IMG/VR virus record: IMGVR_UViG_3300048833_000106
Span: 1-40,543 of that record
Length of the DNA: 40,543 nt
Source: a virus
Direction: 5' to 3' (one strand)
The notes under the pieces were generated by a model, which saw only the letters and a program-made list of their open reading frames with translations, was not told where the DNA came from and did no database searches. The number at the start of each line of letters is the position of its first letter. The stretch's first letter is position 1. This document shows, one piece after another, positions 6,442-40,543 of the stretch. The position numbers and the translations under genes are program-made.

Positions 6442-8030
6442 CAGGAGGGCTCCTCAAGGACTGCAGGGAGCTCGAGCTCCGGCTCATACGACAAACGGCC
6501 CTGGTCGTCCTCGAGCAGGGTGATCGACAGGACGCGGGCGCTGGCCGTGGCACCGTCGGTGCCGAGCGCGGAGACCCGGTCGCCGTTGTTGAAGTCGAGG
6601 AACGGGCGCACGTCGGGGGTGATGACGGCGGAGACCCGCTGCACGGTCACGGTGTTCTTCGCGGTCCGCTTCAGGATCCGCGACGCCGCGGCGCTGGCGG
6701 TGTTCTCCGACCGGGTGTTCCCGAACTCGAGGTAGGTCTCGCGGCGCCCGCGCGCGGAGACGCCGGCGGTGTTCGTGGCCTGGGTCCAGCCGTCCGCGGA
6801 CCGCGTCAGGGCGACGGTCTTGCCGGTGGCTTCTGACTGCACCTCGTACTCGGCGAGGTTCTTCGCCACCCGCAGCACGACGGAGCTGCTGCGGTCGGTG
6901 CCGCGGGTCTCGTAGGCGTGGAGCTCGTTGCTCGCCGGGTCCATCCACCAGTCGACGCCGTGGTCGACGCACCAGTTGAGGACGTCGAGGTAGGGGGTGC
7001 CGCAGCGGATCGAGTCGGCCAGCGCGGTCTCCCAGTCGCGGCCGGTGGAGTCCTCGTCGTCGGTCCATCCGATCGAGAAGTTCGACAGCCGCGGGACGTC
7101 TCGGGCGATCGCTTCCTCGATGAGGGTCGCCATGATCTCCGACGGGTACCAGCGTGGTTCGTCGTCGGTGACCTGCCACGAGCCGGCACCGGTGTGGCGC
7201 AGGACTGCGCCGGGCTTCCCGTTGGGCTTGACCTTGGTCGCGGACATGATGAACCCGGCCCGCGACGTCGAGGACCCGTTGCCGCCGTTCCATGCCTTCG
7301 CTGCCAGCTTGTGCGCGCCCGCGGTGACGGTGAGGGTGCGGGTCGCCATCTTGCGCCACAGGTTGCCGTCGGAGGAGATGTCCGACGACGACAGGATCTT
7401 GGTGCCGTCGAGGTAGAGCTCGAAGTAGTTGTCGGCGGTGACGTGGAAGCGGACCTTGCGGGTCTCGTCGACGTTGAGGGTCGACTTGAACCAGTTCCGG
7501 GTGCCGCCGGCGACGGGGTCGCGGGGGTCGGTCTTCCAGATCCAGTCGGCGGTGCGGTCGGGCCAGCCCTTCGGGGAGCCCTTGCGGCCGTCGGTGACCC
7601 GGTTCCAGGGCAGGTTCTCCGGCGTCGTGTAGGTGACGCGGTCCTCGAAGTGCCCGCCGATGCCGGCGAAGTTGAACGGCCGCTCCTCCGGGGAGTACGG
7701 CGAGAACCCGATCTGCGGGTAGACGACGGCGTCGTCGAGCCACGCGAGCAGGCCACGCCCGGACAGGGTCACCCAGGACTGCCCGGCGGCGTCGAGGAAC
7801 GACCGCCCGCGCTTCTCGATGATGAACGCAGCGACCGTGGTCCCGTCGAGGCGGACCCGGATGACCTGGTCGAGCGCGACGTCGCCCGCGTCGGCGGTGG
7901 GGATCGACACCTCGCCGAAGCCGACGCCGTTGAACTCCTCGAGGACGCGCAGCCCCCGTCGGCTCGGCAGCGGCTTGATGCGCGCGGCGTTGCTCGAGTC
8001 GTAGAGCTCGACGCGCAGCAGGCTGGTCAC
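6441..8030 (-). CDS. Minor tail protein, Gp37-like (tail tip/baseplate)
   Basis: 529 residues beginning with the typical LLRVELYDSSNAARIKPL-type N-terminus of actinophage Gp37-like tail proteins (siphovirus ReqiPepy6 Gp37 family). An inserted beta module at about 170-255 (FHVTADNYFELYLDG, then AGAHKLAAKAWNGG) looks like a PA14 or carbohydrate-binding domain. The C-terminal part returns to the tail-hub-like fold (VSALGTDGATASARVLSIT). GTG at 8030 overlaps the Dit stop as GTGA. Expected at the tail tip next to Dit. Confidence 0.75.
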   Translation of the reverse strand: MTSLLRVELYDSSNAARIKPLPSRRGLRVLEEFNGVGFGEVSIPTADAGDVALDQVIRVRLDGTTVAAFIIEKRGRSFLDAAGQSWVTLSGRGLLAWLDDAVVYPQIGFSPYSPEERPFNFAGIGGHFEDRVTYTTPENLPWNRVTDGRKGSPKGWPDRTADWIWKTDPRDPVAGGTRNWFKSTLNVDETRKVRFHVTADNYFELYLDGTKILSSSDISSDGNLWRKMATRTLTVTAGAHKLAAKAWNGGNGSSTSRAGFIMSATKVKPNGKPGAVLRHTGAGSWQVTDDEPRWYPSEIMATLIEEAIARDVPRLSNFSIGWTDDEDSTGRDWETALADSIRCGTPYLDVLNWCVDHGVDWWMDPASNELHAYETRGTDRSSSVVLRVAKNLAEYEVQSEATGKTVALTRSADGWTQATNTAGVSARGRRETYLEFGNTRSENTASAAASRILKRTAKNTVTVQRVSAVITPDVRPFLDFNNGDRVSALGTDGATASARVLSITLLEDDQGRLSYEPELELPAVLEEPS

Positions 8031-11510: not shown

Positions 11511-12378
11511 AGCTGCGCTCCTTCGTCTCGGATCGTGTAGAAGACGCGGCCGGCCATCGCCTCGTCGCCGCCGTCGTGCGCGACGCGGCGGCGTTCGATG
11601 TCGGCGGCCTCGCACGCGTAGCAGACATCGCTGCGGGCGTCGTAGTCGTGCGCTGGGCGCCCGTGCTCGTCCTTCGCCATCGACTCGTCGCGGTGGTGAC
11701 CGCAGCCGGGGCAACGCCCGGCGAGGTCGGCCATCCACGCGAGCGCGAGCTCGGTGTCCTCCGCCGTGAACAGTGGAGCGCCGGGGCTGGGCCAGGGTCG
11801 TCCGAGGACGATGGAGCGGGGCAGGCGGTAGTGGTGCGCTAGCGCTAGCTCGGCTCGGAGGCGCTCGTCATCACGGACGCGTCCGTCGCTTTTGGGACGT
11901 CGACGACACCGCCCTGCGCGGCCATGCACGCCGCCCACAGGCGCCCGATCTGCCCGGTGCCCCACTGGTTGTACTTCCGCGTCCACCAGGCCTCGTCGGT
12001 CCCCGTGGGCTCGACGCAGGCGGCGGCCATGAGGGCGGGTGGGAAGGTGTCGGTGTTCCACGCGAGCGACGCCTCGGCGTCGGCCTCCTGCTCCGGGGAG
12101 GCAGGGTGCGCGCGGATGAGGTCGGAGTAGGCGCGACGGCCGATCGACTGGAAGACGAACTCCCGCTCGGAGGCCTTCGCCTGCTCGCGCAGCGCCATGA
12201 TCTGCTCGGCGATCTGCGGGGCGAGGGCGGTGCGGTTCGTCTTCTCGTCGAGGGCCTTCTCGCGCTGGAGCTGCTCGGTGAGCCGGTCGATCTCGAGGAC
12301 GATGCGGGAGTCGAGGCAGATGGTGGTGCGGACGAGCGTCGGCTGCCAGGCCTCGTCGATCTCTGCTGCGGTGGGCAT
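11507..12378 (-). CDS. Tail assembly chaperone, -1 frameshift fusion product
   Basis: The downstream frame (11507-11890) has no good start of its own and is in the -1 frame relative to the 11845-12378 gene. A slip on CCCAAAA (11890-11896) joins 163 codons of the upstream frame to 127 residues of the second frame, giving about 290 residues. The second part holds a Cys pattern CPGCG...CYAC with nearby histidines. This G/GT arrangement is standard for siphovirus tail assembly chaperones lying between the major tail protein and tape measure. The coding join is 12378-11890 then 11890-11507. Confidence 0.8.
11845..12378 (-). CDS. Tail assembly chaperone, upstream frame
   Basis: 177 residues, mostly helical, starting MPTAAEIDEAW with a good CAGGAG ribosome-binding site. 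It ends within the overlap with the second frame. It is expected to be made in excess of the fusion product and to coat the tape measure during tail assembly. The order major tail protein, this gene, second frame, tape measure is diagnostic. Confidence 0.85.
   Translation of the reverse strand: MPTAAEIDEAWQPTLVRTTICLDSRIVLEIDRLTEQLQREKALDEKTNRTALAPQIAEQIMALREQAKASEREFVFQSIGRRAYSDLIRAHPASPEQEADAEASLAWNTDTFPPALMAAACVEPTGTDEAWWTRKYNQWGTGQIGRLWAACMAAQGGVVDVPKATDASVMTSASEPS
11873..11896 (-). promoter_or_regulatory. -1 programmed frameshift signal (CCCAAAA plus palindrome)
   Basis: On the minus strand the zero frame reads C CCA AAA (11896-11890), a canonical X-XXY-YYZ slippery heptamer. Three bases downstream lies a perfect 14-base palindrome, ACGGACGCGTCCGT (11873-11886), able to form a 5-bp stem with CGCG loop. 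A -1 slip leads straight into the frame that reads SDGRVRDDERL. Frame arithmetic, heptamer phase and gene position all agree. Confidence 0.85.
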
Positions 12379-26826: not shown

Positions 26827-27651
26827 TCAGGCTCCGATCGCGGGGGTCTCTTCGGCTCGCAGTTCGGCGGCGAGGTCGAGTGCGGATTGGACGCGGGTGT
26901 CGGCGGTGGATCGGGGGCGTGTGGCGGCGGTGCGGGTCTCGTGGACGACGGAGGCGAGGGTGGCTGGGTGGAGGCCCTTGGCGTGCCAGGCGGCGAAGCC
27001 CGCTCGGACGTCGGGGTAGGGGATCCCTTCGTCGAGCATGGCCTTGAGCTCGCGGGCGACGTGTCCGACGACGCGCTTGGGTGGTCGCTGGCCGCAGTGG
27101 TCGATCCATTCGGCGACGAGGGCTTGGGTGTCGTGCTCGGTGAGGTCGTCGAGTGCGCCGTCGGCTCCGCCGGCGGCTACACCACCTCCTCTTCCACCTC
27201 CATCTCCTTCTCCTACTTCCATCTCCTTACGCGCGCGGAGTGAGTCGCTCAGTGAGTCCTCAGTGTCGGATTCAGTGAGTGATTCACTGAATGACTCATG
27301 GAGTGGGCATGGAGGGATGCGTGAGGGGCTCGGGCGGTTGACGCGTTGGTGCTCACGCCAGTTCACGGCGTGGAGGTAGCCGTCGCCGTTGACCGTGTAT
27401 CGGCACAGGGGTGCTGGCTTCTCGGGCTGGGCGGTGGCGTAGAGCTTGAGCCAGGTCTCGACCTTGCGTTCGGTGATGTCGCGGTCGAGGGGGAAGCAGT
27501 CTGCGGCGATGAGGCGCACGTCGTCGATGCCGCGGCCGAAGTCGTCGAGGTAGCCCCAGAGCAGCACCCAGGCGTAGCGCGCGGGGATGGGCCAGGAGGC
27601 CACGACGCGGGAGATGCGCAGGTCGGGCTTCACTGAGCGGATGCGTGCCAT
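26827..27651 (-). CDS. Replication initiator (replisome organiser-like)
   Basis: 274 residues. The N-terminus MARIRSVKPDLRISRVVASW, then WVLLWGYLDDFGRGIDDVRLIAADCFP, is the winged-helix start typical of phage replisome organisers. A low-complexity Ser/Asp/Glu then Gly-rich linker (about 120-165) coincides with repeated DNA (candidate origin). The C-terminal part (about 175-274) is helical (WIDHCGQRPPKRVVGHVARELKAML). ATG at 27651 shares a base with the previous stop (TGATG). Confidence 0.75.
   Translation of the reverse strand: MARIRSVKPDLRISRVVASWPIPARYAWVLLWGYLDDFGRGIDDVRLIAADCFPLDRDITERKVETWLKLYATAQPEKPAPLCRYTVNGDGYLHAVNWREHQRVNRPSPSRIPPCPLHESFSESLTESDTEDSLSDSLRARKEMEVGEGDGGGRGGGVAAGGADGALDDLTEHDTQALVAEWIDHCGQRPPKRVVGHVARELKAMLDEGIPYPDVRAGFAAWHAKGLHPATLASVVHETRTAATRPRSTADTRVQSALDLAAELRAEETPAIGA
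27178..27304. other. Candidate replication origin: iterons and homopyrimidine tract
   Basis: Inside the initiator gene a run of related 11-12 base units begins at 27249: TCAGTGAGTCC, TCAGTGTCGGAT, TCAGTGAGTGAT, TCACTGAATGAC, then TCATGGAGTG. Units three and four form a perfect TCAGTGA/TCACTGA inverted repeat. Next to them (27178-27231) lies an almost pure pyrimidine tract. The stretch is AT-richer than its surroundings. Origins inside the initiator gene are known from lambdoid phages. Confidence 0.6.
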
Positions 27652-27833
27652 CAGGTGGTGCGCTCCTTCATCTCGTTGCAGTGCTCGAGGAGGTCTCGTG
27701 CTGGGGCTGCGCTGTGCACGGAGCGTGTGGGGCCGCGCCACCCGCAGGTGCAGGTGCCGCGGGCTCCGGTGGTCCAGGTGCCGTCGCTGACGAGCTCCTG
27801 GTCGGTGGTGTGCGTGTCGGTGAAGGTGCTCAT
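27651..27833 (-). CDS. 60-residue protein with CTCGW motif
   Basis: MSTFTDTHTTDQELVSDGTW, then GARGTCTCGWRGPTRS and a helical end. The TCTCGWRG motif occurs in small phage proteins of unknown role. ATG overlaps the preceding stop (ATGA) and its stop shares a base with the initiator ATG. Confidence 0.65.
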   Translation of the reverse strand: MSTFTDTHTTDQELVSDGTWTTGARGTCTCGWRGPTRSVHSAAPARDLLEHCNEMKERTT

Positions 27834-28039
27834 GTGCCCTCGAAGGTGACGTTGCAGAGCAGCTCGTCCCACTCGGCCTCGGACTCGGTACGGCCGGCGT
27901 GCAGCGCCGCGCGGGCGCGGGTCTGCAGCCAGAGGCAGTCCTTCGCAACGGCGGCACGGGTGGTCTCGTCCTCGTGGTCGATGTCGCCCGCGAGGAAGTC
28001 GAGGACGCGCATCGCGGCCGCCGCCTCTCCGATGTTCAT
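27830..28039 (-). CDS. 69-residue hypothetical acidic helical protein
   Basis: Begins MNIGEAAAAMRVLDFLAGDID; helical and acidic throughout with a DCLWLQTRARAALHAG segment. ATG overlaps the WhiB-like gene stop. No family recognised. Confidence 0.62.
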   Translation of the reverse strand: MNIGEAAAAMRVLDFLAGDIDHEDETTRAAVAKDCLWLQTRARAALHAGRTESEAEWDELLCNVTFEGT

Positions 28040-30161: not shown

Positions 30162-30622
30162 GGGGTGCCGCCCAGGGCGCGGACGGTGGGACACGGCCAC
30201 GTCATCGGCGCGATGTCGTAGCACGTCTCACAGACGACGCCCGGTGGGTGCAGCGCCCGGACGGCGGCGAGCCGGGCCTCAGCGGCGTCGCGCTCGGTGC
30301 GCGCAGCCTTCTCGGCGTCCCACCCGGCATCGCGCCACGTCCGCAACCGCTCCACCTCGGCCCGCGCCTCGGTGAGCGCGGCGATGAGGGCACGCACCAC
30401 GTCCGGCGAGGCAGCAGCGATGAACTCCGGGTCACCGGGTGAGATGGGATCAGGGTTGAGTCGGGTCGCCGTAGACGCCACGAGATGCGCGTTCCACGAC
30501 GTTCCAATGTTCGCCCATATCTCGATCGGAGCGGATGGGCCACCAGTACGCCACGGCCCCGGTGTTGCTGCGGCTGCCTTGGCGTCGAGGTCTGCGATGG
30601 CCTCGGGGGTCAGATCGGTCAT
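30158..30622 (-). CDS. Ea22-like accessory protein
   Basis: 154 residues: MTDLTPEAIADLDAKAAAAT, GPW..., and a helix DVVRALIAALTEARAEVERLR with later CETCYDIAPMTWPCPTVRAL zinc-like end. This layout is typical of Ea22/ead-like early phage proteins of unknown role. Its first ~60 bases are duplicated 1.1 kb away (31669-31728). Confidence 0.65.
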   Translation of the reverse strand: MTDLTPEAIADLDAKAAAATPGPWRTGGPSAPIEIWANIGTSWNAHLVASTATRLNPDPISPGDPEFIAAASPDVVRALIAALTEARAEVERLRTWRDAGWDAEKAARTERDAAEARLAAVRALHPPGVVCETCYDIAPMTWPCPTVRALGGTP

Positions 30623-30628
30623 GACGCG
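30569..30628. repeat. 60-bp direct repeat, copy A
   Basis: Covers the start of the Ea22-like gene (TGCGGCTGCCTTGGCGTCGAG through GTCATGAC on the plus strand, with a few mismatches to copy B at 31669-31728). The two copies flank a three-gene cassette. Confidence 0.75.
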
Positions 30629-31654: not shown

Positions 31655-31722
31655 CGAACCTCACCCCTTGCGGCTGCCTTGGCGTCGAGCGCCGCGAGGG
31701 CCTCGGGGGTCAGGTCTGTCAT
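31651..31722 (-). pseudogene. Truncated 23-residue copy of the Ea22-like N-terminus
   Basis: Reads MTDLTPEALAALDAKAAARG then stops, against MTDLTPEAIADLDAKAAAAT in the full gene at 30158-30622. ATGA overlaps on both sides keep it in the translated chain. Most likely the relic 5' end of the gene left by cassette insertion. Confidence 0.65.
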
Positions 31723-31728
31723 GACTCG
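31669..31728. repeat. 60-bp direct repeat, copy B
   Basis: Partner of 30569-30628; includes the start of the truncated frame 31651-31722. Same orientation, about 1.1 kb apart. Confidence 0.75.
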
Positions 31729-35665: not shown

Positions 35666-35965
35666 CTAGGTGCCCTGTCGGGCGACGAGGCGGCGCTGGC
35701 GCTCGGAGAGCCGCGGTCGGAGGCGGGCGGCGGCGCGGAGCTCGCGGATGGCGGTGCGGCGCGCCTTCTTCCACCGGCGGGCGGCGTCGGCCTTGGCCTG
35801 GCGGGTCCGGACCCGCTGCGACGGAGCGGCCTCAACGAGGACCTCGACGGTGCGCTCGGGGAACGTCTCGGAGATGACGTACCAGGCACCGGAGCGGGCG
35901 GGCTCGAGGTCGACGTCGCGGACGATGCCTCGGGCCGCGAGCGGGTTGATCTGCGAGAGCCTCAT
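35666..35965 (-). CDS. Small basic protein
   Basis: 99 residues: MRLSQINPLAARGIVRDVDL, a beta segment (GAWYVISETFPERTVEVLVE), then a very basic helical tail (RRWKKARRTAIRELRAAARL). Possibly nucleic-acid binding. ATGA overlap with the previous gene. Confidence 0.62.
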   Translation of the reverse strand: MRLSQINPLAARGIVRDVDLEPARSGAWYVISETFPERTVEVLVEAAPSQRVRTRQAKADAARRWKKARRTAIRELRAAARLRPRLSERQRRLVARQGT

Positions 35966-36357
35966 GAGCCGTCCTCCTTGTCGGGTGGGCTGAACGCCTC
36001 GTCGGCACCGCGGTAGCGGCGCTGGCCGTCGACCGGCTCGCCAACTCCGAGGGTCTCGGCGAGGGACGTGATGAGCGCGGCCATGTCGTCGCCGATCGCG
36101 CGACAGGCGGGGCAGCCGTCGAGGTGACCGCAGGAGCCGCAGTACGCCTCGACGGTCAGGTGCCCGTCGGGCGTCGTTGCCAGCTCGACGCGGGCCTCGT
36201 TCGCGGCGGCCTCGTGTCCGTGGGCGGTGACCATGTGGTCCGCCAGGTCCGGGGCGGGGACGACGACCGCGCACTCCTCGCAGGCGACGCCGATCCAGTC
36301 GGGGTCGATCGGCGCGGTGTGGCCGTCGAGGACCTGGGCGAGGGTGGGGTCGGTCAT
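35962..36357 (-). CDS. Zinc-finger protein
   Basis: 131 residues with CEECAVVVPAPDLADHMVTA H-type C2H2-like finger and a second YCGSCGHLDGCPACRA ribbon. Small Cys/His proteins of this kind are common in actinophage early regions. ATGA overlap. Confidence 0.65.
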   Translation of the reverse strand: MTDPTLAQVLDGHTAPIDPDWIGVACEECAVVVPAPDLADHMVTAHGHEAAANEARVELATTPDGHLTVEAYCGSCGHLDGCPACRAIGDDMAALITSLAETLGVGEPVDGQRRYRGADEAFSPPDKEDGS

Positions 36358-36641
36358 GACGCCTCCTCGAGTCGCGGGCTGTGCAGCCGGTTGTCGCGGG
36401 GATTGAGGTCGCGGATGGTGACCCGCTCGACGGCCTCGGCGTAGGCCCGAGAGGGGCCGACGTGCCAGGCGTCGATGTGCGTCGCGCCCTCGGCGAGGTA
36501 GTGCATGTGGTTACTGGTCCGGCGCAGCCAGTTCGACGTCATGCCGACGTACAGGCACTCGTCGTCGCACCAGATGACGTAGACGGCGTGCTCGCGGTCG
36601 GCGAGGTGGCGGTTGTGGTACGCCCGGTGCTGCCCGCTCAT
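36354..36641 (-). CDS. GIY-YIG nuclease domain protein
   Basis: 95 residues: HAVYVIWCDDECLYVGMTSN with WLRRTSNHMHYL and an E-rich helix (AYAEAVERVTI) carrying the metal-binding glutamate. YVI...YVG is the GIY-YIG variant. It could be a solo homing nuclease or a structure-specific nuclease. ATG overlaps the HTH stop. Confidence 0.78.
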   Translation of the reverse strand: MSGQHRAYHNRHLADREHAVYVIWCDDECLYVGMTSNWLRRTSNHMHYLAEGATHIDAWHVGPSRAYAEAVERVTIRDLNPRDNRLHSPRLEEAS

Positions 36642-36811
36642 GCCGCACCGACGATCAGAGCGTCGATGGCGGGGCGGGGGTAGCGGCGCTGGCCGCCAGG
36701 GGTACGGAACGACGGGATCTTGCCCTCGTCGGCCCAGCGGACGATGGTCGAGACGTGGACTCCGAAGAGTGCAGCGACCTGACTGCCCGTGTAGGGGGTT
36801 TGCGGCTCCAT
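36638..36811 (-). CDS. MerR/BldC-like HTH protein (candidate excisionase)
   Basis: 57 residues: YTGSQVAALFGVHVSTIVRW, ADEGKIPSFRTPGGQRRY. This is the classic BldC/MerR winged-helix with the TPGGxRRY wing. As first leftward gene facing the repressor it may be the Cro/excisionase function. ATG at 36811 lies seven bases after a -10-like TAGGTT, with no ribosome-binding site, suggesting a leaderless message. Confidence 0.78.
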   Translation of the reverse strand: MEPQTPYTGSQVAALFGVHVSTIVRWADEGKIPSFRTPGGQRRYPRPAIDALIVGAA

Positions 36812-36817
36812 GTGGGA

Positions 36818-36847
36818 GAACCTAGGCTCTCACTAGGTTCCTGTCCA
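36818..36847 (-). promoter_or_regulatory. Leftward early promoter with overlapping palindromic operator
   Basis: On the minus strand: TGGACA (36847-36842), 17 bases, TAGGTT (36824-36819), seven bases, ATG. A perfect inverted repeat GAACCTAG-N7-CTAGGTTC (36818-36840) covers the spacer and the -10 box. It is the expected target for the divergently encoded repressor. Confidence 0.65.
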
Positions 36848-36864
36848 CCCAACACCCATAGTCA

Positions 36865-36892
36865 TTTCGGGTGGTTCTGTGGGCGCTATCTT
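36865..36892 (+). promoter_or_regulatory. Candidate rightward repressor promoter
   Basis: TTTCGG (36865-36870), 16 bases, TATCTT (36887-36892). The stretch is AT-richer than its surroundings. A lone CTAGG half-site lies at 36901-36905, between this promoter and the repressor start. Weak -35; low confidence. Confidence 0.35.
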
Positions 36893-36925
36893 GCGTCGTG
36901 CTAGGAATGCCTTACTTTGGTAGGC

Positions 36926-37285
36926 ATGAGCACTCAACCGCAGTGGGTCCCGACCGACACGTTCGGGGGACGCCTGATCCTGCTCCGACACCAGCTCGGG
37001 CTCACGATCGACGAGGCCGCAGAGCGCACCGGCCAGAAGCCGGCCACCTGGTCCACATGGGAGCGCGGGTCGATGCCGCGCTCGATGGCCTCCATCGTCG
37101 CGTCGATCTCGCTCGCAACGGGCGTGAGCCGTGAGTGGCTGATGTGGGGTGGGCCTCTGTCGGGACCAGAGGGCGGCCCTGGTGAGTCGCTACATCACCA
37201 GGGGTTGAGGCACAATGATACCGAGTTGATGCAATATCGGTCACGGCTCAGCTCGGTGCGAGACCTCGTCAAGGTGGCCGCGTGA
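36926..37285 (+). CDS. XRE-family HTH repressor
   Basis: 119 residues. HTH at about 15-60: FGGRLILLRHQLGLTIDEAA, ERTGQKPATWSTWERG, ISLATGVSREWLMWG. This is a Cro/CI-type fold with a C-terminal extension. ATG 36926 preferred over TTG 36917. Divergent from the early operon, adjacent to the palindromic operator and followed by the integrase, it is the most likely immunity repressor. Confidence 0.78.
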   Translation: MSTQPQWVPTDTFGGRLILLRHQLGLTIDEAAERTGQKPATWSTWERGSMPRSMASIVASISLATGVSREWLMWGGPLSGPEGGPGESLHHQGLRHNDTELMQYRSRLSSVRDLVKVAA

Positions 37286-37303
37286 TGAGCCGAGGTGACT
37301 TGC

Positions 37304-38086
37304 ATGACGCAACTCACCCAGCAGTGGGCGGCGCACATGAAGTTCTCGGGGGCAGCTGCTACCACCGTCGTCACGCGCGTCCGCGCGCTGCGGCGGCTGG
37401 AGCGAGAGTTCGGACCCTTGCAGGGCATCACACGCGCCGACCTCACCACCTTCCTCTCTCGCTACGAGCACGCCTCGTCGCGCTCCACGAACCTGTCCTA
37501 CGTCCGGTGCTTCTACGCCTGGGCGTTGGACGAGGGGCACGTCGAGGCCGACCCCACGGCGAAACTCCCGACGGTCAAGGTGCCCAGCGGCGACCCGCGG
37601 CCGGCGCCTGTCGCCGAGGTGCGGGCGATGCTCGCCGCGGCGCCCCCGCGGACCCGGATGTTCGCGCTGCTCATGGCCTTCTGCGGCCTGCGCTGCTGCG
37701 AGGTCTCGGGGGTGCGGCACGCGCACCTCAACCGCGCGGCGGACGGCGCCTGGTGGCTGGACATCCCGCACAGCAAGGGCGGGCATCAGCAGACGGTGCC
37801 AGTGCCGGAGTGGGTTGCCGCCGAGGTGCTCGCCGCGCCCGAGTGGGCCGTGTCGACGCAGACCGTGCAGCGCGACGTGCGGCAGGCGTTCCGCGCGGTC
37901 GGCTCCACTGCCACTCCCCACCAGCTGCGGCACTACTTCGGCACGACGGCGCTCAACGCCACTGGGGACCTGCGCAAGGTGCAGAAGTTGATGCGCCACG
38001 CCTCGCCCGCGACGACAGCGCGGTACACCGCAGTCGCCGCGTCCGAGCTCTCGGCGGTCGCCGAGGCGCTGCCCCGAATCGCGTGA
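37304..38086 (+). CDS. int: Tyrosine integrase
   Basis: 260 residues. N-terminal SAM-like core-binding domain (1-95) without an arm-type domain, then catalytic domain with R130 (CGLR), K158 (HSKGG), H206-x2-R209 (HQLRH), H232 and nucleophile Y241 (ATTARYT). Short, XerD-like length. ATG 37304 chosen because GAGGTG lies 7 bases upstream. It should integrate the phage at attP, which I could not locate. Confidence 0.9.
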   Translation: MTQLTQQWAAHMKFSGAAATTVVTRVRALRRLEREFGPLQGITRADLTTFLSRYEHASSRSTNLSYVRCFYAWALDEGHVEADPTAKLPTVKVPSGDPRPAPVAEVRAMLAAAPPRTRMFALLMAFCGLRCCEVSGVRHAHLNRAADGAWWLDIPHSKGGHQQTVPVPEWVAAEVLAAPEWAVSTQTVQRDVRQAFRAVGSTATPHQLRHYFGTTALNATGDLRKVQKLMRHASPATTARYTAVAASELSAVAEALPRIA

Positions 38087-38825: not shown

Positions 38826-40042
38826 GACGCCTCCCGCAGGACTCGGACGCGGTCGAAGCCGCCGCGGCCGATGGTGAGGGTGAGCAGGCCGGCCTGGGTG
38901 TTCTCGCCGGTCTCTCGGGCGTACCACTCGGAGCCGTTGTCGAGGCTCGGTGCCTGGATCCAGGTGCGGCAGCCGGTCTCGATGATCCGGAGGCTGTGGA
39001 AGTGGCCGGTGAGGAGCAGGGCAGCGTCGCCGGCGGGGAGCATGCCGTGGGCTTGGCCGGCCCACCACTTCTCGGCGCCGCCTCGGCACTGGTGGCCGTG
39101 GGCGACGGCGACGATGGTGCCGGAGAGGTCGAGTGTGACGACGTCCTTGTCGATGCCGGGGAACGCGAAGCGGACGTGGCCGAACTTCTCGGGCTGGTCG
39201 GCGAGGCGTTCGGCGACGGCGGCAGCTGCGTCGATGTCCCAGGAGTCGTCGTGGCGGGTGGCGACCTGGCGGGATGCCTCGTCGTGGTTGCCGGCCACGG
39301 CGACGACGGTGACGGCGGGTGCGTGCTTGGCGAAGGTCATGACGGCGTGCGCGAGGAGGCGGCGGTAGACGCGGACCATCTCGGTGACGGCGAGGTCGGT
39401 GCGCCAGACGAGGCGGCCACCCTGGGAGACGAAGCCCTCGCAGCCGTCGCCGGGGAAGATCAGCGCGACCGGGCCGACGGTGCCGCGCTTGGCGAGCGCG
39501 CGGTACTCGGTGACGGCCTGGTCGGTAAGTGCGAGGACGCGGGCGATGGTGCGGTCGGTGCCGCCGGCGGCTTCCCACTTCCCGATCTGCATGTCGGCGT
39601 AGACCACGGTGAAGGTGTCGGCTGAGTCCAACGCTGGTTTGGGCGTCCGCGGCAACTTCCAACGGTCGATCGCCTCGAGCAGGTCGTCGGCGGTCTGCTG
39701 GACCTGGTCGACGACGATCGCCCACCGGCACGTCACCGCGACCGTTGAGTAGGCCGTGTGCGGCTTGCCGATGTCGGCGTGGTCGCGCCGCCACGCGGCC
39801 GGGTTCGTCTTCGCCTCGACGAGCACCGCCCGGTAGCCGGGCTCGATGTGGACGCCGAACCCGCGCAGCGTCTCGGTCCACTGGTCCTCGGCTGGCAGTG
39901 CTGGCAGGACTGCGGTGACGGTCGAGGGGCGGCCGGTGCGCTCGTCGTAGGTGATCGTGTAGTCCGGACGGTCCCGGCTGGGCGCCGGCGGCGTGGGGCC
40001 CGCCGCGGCGTACTCGGCCGCGAGGTTCTCGGACAGGCTCAC
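38810..40042 (-). CDS. Mre11-like metallophosphoesterase nuclease
   Basis: 410 residues. Phosphoesterase motifs: D-x-Q (YADMQIG, 150-152), GDG (198-200), GNHDE (251-255), AHGHQ and GHFHS further on. This fold cuts or trims DNA ends in SbcD/Mre11 proteins. The first ~140 residues form an extra N-terminal domain. GTG 40042 overlaps the HTH stop. The first histidine of the usual DxH is a glutamine. Same gene begins at the left edge. Confidence 0.82.
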   Translation of the reverse strand: MSLSENLAAEYAAAGPTPPAPSRDRPDYTITYDERTGRPSTVTAVLPALPAEDQWTETLRGFGVHIEPGYRAVLVEAKTNPAAWRRDHADIGKPHTAYSTVAVTCRWAIVVDQVQQTADDLLEAIDRWKLPRTPKPALDSADTFTVVYADMQIGKWEAAGGTDRTIARVLALTDQAVTEYRALAKRGTVGPVALIFPGDGCEGFVSQGGRLVWRTDLAVTEMVRVYRRLLAHAVMTFAKHAPAVTVVAVAGNHDEASRQVATRHDDSWDIDAAAAVAERLADQPEKFGHVRFAFPGIDKDVVTLDLSGTIVAVAHGHQCRGGAEKWWAGQAHGMLPAGDAALLLTGHFHSLRIIETGCRTWIQAPSLDNGSEWYARETGENTQAGLLTLTIGRGGFDRVRVLREASCASP

Positions 40043-40284
40043 GTGCGCCCGCAGGTGCAGATGCCCTTGCGGTGGCGCTGCACGGTGTTCTGGCCGATGG
40101 AGAAGCCCTCGGCCTGGAGCGCGCGCAGGATGACGGTGGTGGTGATGTTCTCCCTGTCGGCGAGGTACGCGGTCAGGGCGTCGGCGTCAGCCTTGTCGAG
40201 GCGGGCGAAGATGGCCTCGAAGCTGCACGGTGGGCCCTTGCGGGCGGCGGCCTTCTCGGCGTCGAGCGCAGCGCGGAGCGACAC
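40039..40284 (-). CDS. Small helix-turn-helix protein, empty-site copy
   Basis: 81 residues, identical in protein to the copy at 11-256 apart from its GTG initiator. GTG at 40284 is preceded by GAAGGGG. Its stop overlaps the Mre11 GTG. It is the ancestral arrangement: no HNH gene between ribosome-binding site and start. Confidence 0.78.
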   Translation of the reverse strand: MSLRAALDAEKAAARKGPPCSFEAIFARLDKADADALTAYLADRENITTTVILRALQAEGFSIGQNTVQRHRKGICTCGRT

Positions 40285-40326
40285 GGTGTGTTCCCCTTCG
40301 TGGTCGGTCGGGGTGTGGTCGATGCA

Positions 40327-40360
40327 CCGCAGCCCCCGCCACGGATGACGGGGGCTGCGG
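40327..40360. terminator. 12-bp hairpin, right copy
   Basis: Same hairpin as 594-627: CCGCAGCCCCCG at 40327-40338 with 40349-40360. Confidence 0.6.
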
Positions 40361-40397
40361 GCCACCCGGTGACCACGACACCGGGGGGTCTGGTGGG

Positions 40398-40543
40398 TCA
40401 GGCGCGGGTGAGGACGCGGACCCAGTTCACGCGCATCGCCGCAGGGAGGGCGGTGTCCGGGGTCGAAGGGCCCCAGTACGGCGAGCCGACCTGCAGCTGC
40501 AGGCGCATGTGGGCCTTGCCGGCGAACGACGACTTGAGGACGC
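40398..40543 (-). CDS. GH16 glycanase C-terminus, right copy (partial)
   Basis: Last ~48 codons of the gene at 815-1798, cut by the window edge. It ends VRVLTRA instead of VRVLTKA. The stop is only about 114 bases from the HTH start here, against about 260 bases to the HNH start in the left copy. Confidence 0.8.
   Translation of the reverse strand, partial: VLKSSFAGKAHMRLQLQVGSPYWGPSTPDTALPAAMRVNWVRVLTRA

Follow-up and report, generated by a model that had tools for sequence, protein, structure and literature searches.

A palindrome filling the predicted leaderless early promoter of a putative integration-dependent immunity switch in an actinobacterial phage

We analyzed a 40,543-nt viral contig (IMG/VR record IMGVR_UViG_3300048833_000106, positions 1 to 40,543; hereafter, the window) and found a site upstream of a leftward gene that is probably, at roughly 80%, the early promoter PR with its operator OR, belonging to a lysis–lysogeny switch of the integration-dependent immunity type in a temperate actinobacterial phage. 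Inspection of the site shows a palindrome that fills the −10 element and the spacer, an excisionase-like gene occupying the Cro position, and a divergent repressor–integrase pair alongside. Comparison with related loci shows that both the spacing and the position of the dyad recur. Judged by its sequence, this switch is of a known type, and many related phages share its layout; what makes it of interest is the conserved leaderless geometry.

A palindrome within the predicted early promoter

The promoter, the palindrome, and the leftward genes are as follows.

36842..36847, minus strand: −35 element of PR, TGGACA; read from sequence, position kept in relatives
36819..36824, minus strand: −10 element of PR, TAGGTT (weak match), wholly within the palindrome; read from sequence, N17 and N7 spacing kept in relatives
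36818..36840, no strand: candidate operator OR, a perfect 8+7+8 palindrome, GAACCTAG-N7-CTAGGTTC; single copy, with its core at an equal offset in five related loci
36638..36811, minus strand: first early gene, encoding a 57-aa MerR/BldC-type HTH protein, excisionase-like or in the Cro position; predicted leaderless (HTH_17/MerR, phrog_66, TIGR01764 excise)
36354..36641, minus strand: GIY-YIG domain gene (PF01541), with a 4-bp overlap with the first gene
35962..36357, minus strand: third leftward early ORF, with a 4-bp overlap with the GIY-YIG gene (ORF coordinates)

An earlier note on this DNA had described TGGACA-N17-TAGGTT beside an ATG lacking a ribosome-binding site, and this arrangement can be read directly from the minus strand: TGGACA (36847–36842), the 17-nt spacer (36841–36825), TAGGTT (36824–36819), the seven bases CTCCCAC, and the ATG (36811–36809). 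No Shine–Dalgarno-like sequence precedes the ATG at 36811. This codon is the most upstream start available in its frame, and residue 7 is where the HTH domain begins, making a later start unlikely and the start codon firm. From the spacing and the missing Shine–Dalgarno sequence, we predict that the PR transcript is leaderless, beginning at the A of the start codon and translated without a leader; leaderless translation is common in mycobacteria (PMC4633059). TAGGTT matches TATAAT at only three of six positions, and a strict sigma-70 scan did not flag PR. Since the hexamers alone are too weak, with a −10 that is poor by sigma-70 rules, our promoter call relies on the geometry conserved in relatives.

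The palindrome, whose central N7 is GCTCTCA, runs from 29 to 7 nt before the first base of the ATG. It covers the full −10 and 16 of the 17 spacer bases and ends one base before the −35, so that the repeat claimed to cover the spacer and the −10 is confirmed with the exception of a single spacer base. The genome search for further copies that had been proposed, run here over the whole virus record with up to three mismatches allowed, left 36818–36840 as the sole good copy in the contig; the only other match was a three-mismatch site at 6839 (chance expectation at this stringency, 0.04 per window). Might the dyad and the −35/−10 match have arisen by chance? The contig is 70% GC and holds 22 perfect inverted repeats with arms of at least 8, so such repeats are not rare, and the −10 is weak; yet just 15 of 2000 shuffles of the 114-nt intergenic stretch produced a perfect inverted repeat of this kind, and the core is conserved at the exact offset in relatives, which makes coincidence very improbable.

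The exact palindrome was found in three other viral contigs, two of them representing one phage at that site. No HTH repressor was recognized beside it among the inspected ORFs of two contigs (L023 and L024), and the exact sequence is therefore not diagnostic. In L024, a 110-kb viral contig, the palindrome occurs together with TTGCAT-N17-TAGGTT (11784–11815); the gene there has a leader and a Shine–Dalgarno sequence, with no repressor seen alongside, and we consider this match a coincidence.

The product of 35962..36357 had no family match in domain and phrog profile searches, and an exonuclease VIII-like gene lies further leftward. Their content (MerR/BldC-type, GIY-YIG, and exonuclease VIII-like) leads us to view the leftward genes as a putative early lytic region. 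A repressor dimer (or tetramer) bound at 36818–36840 would exclude RNA polymerase from PR and keep this leftward operon silent, and the 4-bp start/stop overlaps may couple the translation of the genes that follow the first one.

Three features elsewhere in the window were also recorded. The contig ends repeat at 95%–98% identity with gaps (1–250 with 40029–40278, 557–658 with 40290–40392, and 798–960 with 40380–40543, within regions 1–960 and 40029–40543), which suggests a phage genome that is nearly complete and closes into a circle, assembled across strain variants. At 27270–27292, in the Ser/Asp/Glu-rich part of the minus-strand ORF 26827–27957, is a perfect 9+5+9 inverted repeat rich in AT, ATTCAGTGA-GTGAT-TCACTGAAT. 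Finally, there is a 57-bp direct repeat of 89% identity with copies 1.1 kb apart (30569–30625 and 31669–31725).

The divergent repressor and integrase

Divergent from the early gene (36811–36638), the other arm of the putative switch comprises the following features.

36926..37285, plus strand: repressor, 119 aa, with an N-terminal HTH_31 domain and a tail ending in KVAA (ssrA-like); domain searches, tblastn, and structure model
37295..38086, plus strand: tyrosine integrase, 263 aa (PF00589, phrog_1)
36891..36918, plus strand: candidate promoter Prep, TTGCGT-N16-TACTTT, 7 nt before the ATG at 36926; read from sequence, with similar spacing before the repressors of several relatives
36890..36904, plus strand: CTTG-N7-CTAG covering the Prep −35, perhaps an additional weak operator; one mismatch from CTAG-N7-CTAG
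37177..37203, no strand: perfect 9+9+9 inverted repeat within the DNA encoding the tail, a speculative attP core; inverted-repeat scan

The repressor belongs to phrog_2328 ("transcriptional repressor"). Its N-terminal domain was modeled with high confidence, and the tail after residue ∼80 with low confidence. The N-terminal model resembles the DNA-binding domains of 434 Cro, P22 c2, and SinR, none reaching an E-value of 0.001, and phmmer returned no solved relative. The integrase is adjacent on the same strand, beginning nine bp past the repressor stop; its C terminus, EALPRIA, is not an AA-type tag.

Phage matches to the repressor in tblastn searches came from Gordonia, Mycobacterium, and Arthrobacter phages. 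Identity to the repressors of Brujita, Reyja, YungMoney, and EricDab was 39%–45% over the HTH domain, and the adjacent tyrosine integrase is likewise homologous to those of the same four cassettes. We take Brujita to be a member of Cluster I. Integration-dependent immunity has been reported for Cluster I (PMC4557955), and roughly half of the Gordonia phages whose attP has been identified display its features (PMC5559632). In such systems the repressor gene itself contains attP, and the viral form of the repressor has an ssrA-like tag that is lost on integration (PMC4557955, PMC9262239, PMC9934374).

By its KVAA end, the repressor of the window has the viral form. This end would keep the viral repressor scarce or unstable, and the protein would become stable once integration replaced the tail. 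Among relatives, repressors with a recognized integrase next to them mostly end in AA (exceptions L026, L040, and L043), and an AA end is missing from nearly all of those that terminate at the border of a prophage or within a chromosome (exception L035). In two loci, L055 and L058, the 3′ end of the repressor gene overlaps a tRNA-Lys gene. An alignment of seven repressors was too divergent to serve as a search query. We also noted a repressor/MerR/integrase cassette of the same phage type in a contig assigned to a "Planctomycetota" MAG (L057, JALWOP010000168.1), which was perhaps mis-binned.

Replacement of the tail would need an attP inside the repressor gene, and none was located there. A search of 396 genomes of the phylum for a matching attB returned GC-rich noise only. 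At gathering score, the window had no Rfam match. No tRNA piece was recognized in the repressor tail, by an insensitive test that gave no tRNA match in L062 either; its sole match in the tail, a snoRNA fragment, was taken as chance. The 9+9+9 repeat had no copy in the viral contigs. The repressor tails of six relatives (L003, L032, L031, L056, L061, and L063) have in common a core, TCTACCAAATGG (L031, 407–419; L056, 3240–3252; L061, 2095–2107; L063, 3228–3240), that is identical across these relatives even at synonymous sites, codes for STKW, and has a complement resembling a tRNA D-arm. It is likely the attP core of these relatives, and it is missing from the repressor tail of the window.

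We weighed these results against an ordinary repressor switch that would use the same operator but leave integration and immunity uncoupled, with attP outside the repressor gene and KVAA not a functional tag. Such a switch would accommodate the unlocated attP, the missing core, and the integrase without an AA end, but it sits poorly with the adjacency of repressor and integrase, the AA end of viral form, and the family membership, and we consider it unlikely.

The repressor gene looks leaderless as well, with TTGCGT-N16-TACTTT-N7-ATG (36926) at its start. Comparable spacing precedes the repressors of L003 (TGGACA-N17-TATTAT-N7-ATG), L030, L035, and L036; as we tried several spacings for each gene, the evidence for Prep is weaker than that for PR. 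One-mismatch CTAG-N7-CTAG sites, such as the one over the Prep −35, are within chance in number in the window. The earlier reading of a compact lysogeny switch is supported by the divergent repressor–integrase pair and by homologous cassettes in relatives. It overlooked the integration-dependent immunity family, the degradation-tag-like repressor end beside the integrase, and the leaderless-looking repressor promoter.

Promoter geometry and dyads in related loci

The −35, N17, −10, N7, ATG spacing of PR also precedes the divergent gene of Brujita, Reyja, YungMoney, and L003, lending support to the proposal of a leaderless early promoter. We compared 31 repressor-linked divergent loci with 41 control MerR/BldC-like genes that have no recognized repressor alongside. 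Not every locus is independent of the others, and some starts (e.g., L062, L033, L034, and L054) were picked by eye, making the following counts descriptive: a TTGACA-like −35 (at least 5/6 matches) at −35 to −37 in ∼20 of 31 repressor-linked loci versus 0 of 41 controls, a Shine–Dalgarno-like sequence in two of 31 versus 24 of 41, and a dyad centered at −15 to −19 in ∼20 of the 31 by hand count.

The sharpest test came from a set of six MerR-type, repressor-linked genes (window, L003, L032, L056, L061, and L063), in all of which a TAG-N7-CTA core has its center 18 or 19 nt upstream of the start codon. Counting the window, these represent about five independent cases, as L061 and L063 are mutually close. 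Of 635 ORF starts taken from the same DNA, only six have the core at −17 to −19, equal in number to the six genes, and 20,000 shuffles placed it in at most one of five sequences. Two further MerR-type loci, L062 and L057, lack the core and have other dyads. Where the divergent protein is not of the MerR type, dyads of different sequence hold the same place.

The comparison bears on what binds the palindrome. The MerR/BldC-type protein could itself be the main binder, regulating its own gene as Cro does; dyads in promoter spacers are typical binding sites of MerR proteins, and the TAG-N7-CTA core does occur with MerR-type divergent genes. Excisionase-class proteins, however, usually bind direct repeats, as Apl does, and dyads of other sequence stand at the same place where the divergent protein differs in family but the repressor is homologous. 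We thus find autoregulation of this kind rather improbable. The dyad keeps its place across families of divergent protein, with the repressor as the common factor, which argues for the repressor as the binder. The suggestion in the earlier note of a repressor operator inside the promoter gains support from the same relatives, among which the sequence of the dyad varies.

A broader proposal, which we hold only tentatively, is that throughout the family both divergent transcripts are leaderless, the −35, operator, and start codon lie at fixed distances (the start codon setting the operator position), and the first early MerR-type protein acts as both Cro and excisionase in a switch thought to have no directionality factor. 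The open-access literature searched gave no statement of a family-wide leaderless geometry or of the positional rule given below; the original papers on these switches (Broussard 2013; Oldfield 2014) fell outside that scope, and no priority is claimed. For the window, the analysis gives a base-by-base prediction of the repressor binding site and the transcription start. More generally, it suggests a rule, with the start codon at +1 and the operator centered ∼17 nt upstream, by which promoters and operators might be located in actinobacterial phages with integration-dependent immunity.

Comparison with known systems

The mycobacteriophage BPs has an operator between the −10 and −35 of PR (PMC4557955). 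Like the window, it pairs a divergent early gene with a repressor–integrase pair and has a tagged viral repressor (PMC4557955). BPs differs in having paired 12-bp palindromic half sites, 5–8 bp apart, at several loci, whereas the window has one 23-bp dyad in one copy. A C-terminal AA-type tag has also been described for the BPs integrase (PMC9262239), in contrast to the PRIA end of the integrase in the window.

L003 (IMG/VR 3300036900_000102), among the closest full cassettes, has a repressor 53% identical and a MerR-type gene ∼49% identical to those of the window. The two have the same promoter geometry and TAG-N7-CTA at −18, and the L003 tail ends in AVAA. The L003 repressor tail is shorter, however, and contains the TCTACCAAATGG core, and the integrases are just 29% identical.

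The immunity cassette of mycobacteriophage Brujita (genes 33–35, NC_011291) has a MerR-like putative excisionase, a divergent repressor, and an integrase in the same order as the window. Upstream of gene 35 is TTGACA-N17-N6-N7-ATG with a dyad in the spacer, again as in the window, and the Brujita repressor is AA-ended. The two repressors are ∼34% identical, the Brujita dyad is TGCAC-N4-GTGCA, and an antirepressor gene follows Brujita gene 35. According to a review, integration-dependent immunity systems have no evident directionality factor; despite this, both Brujita and the window have an excisionase-like first early gene.
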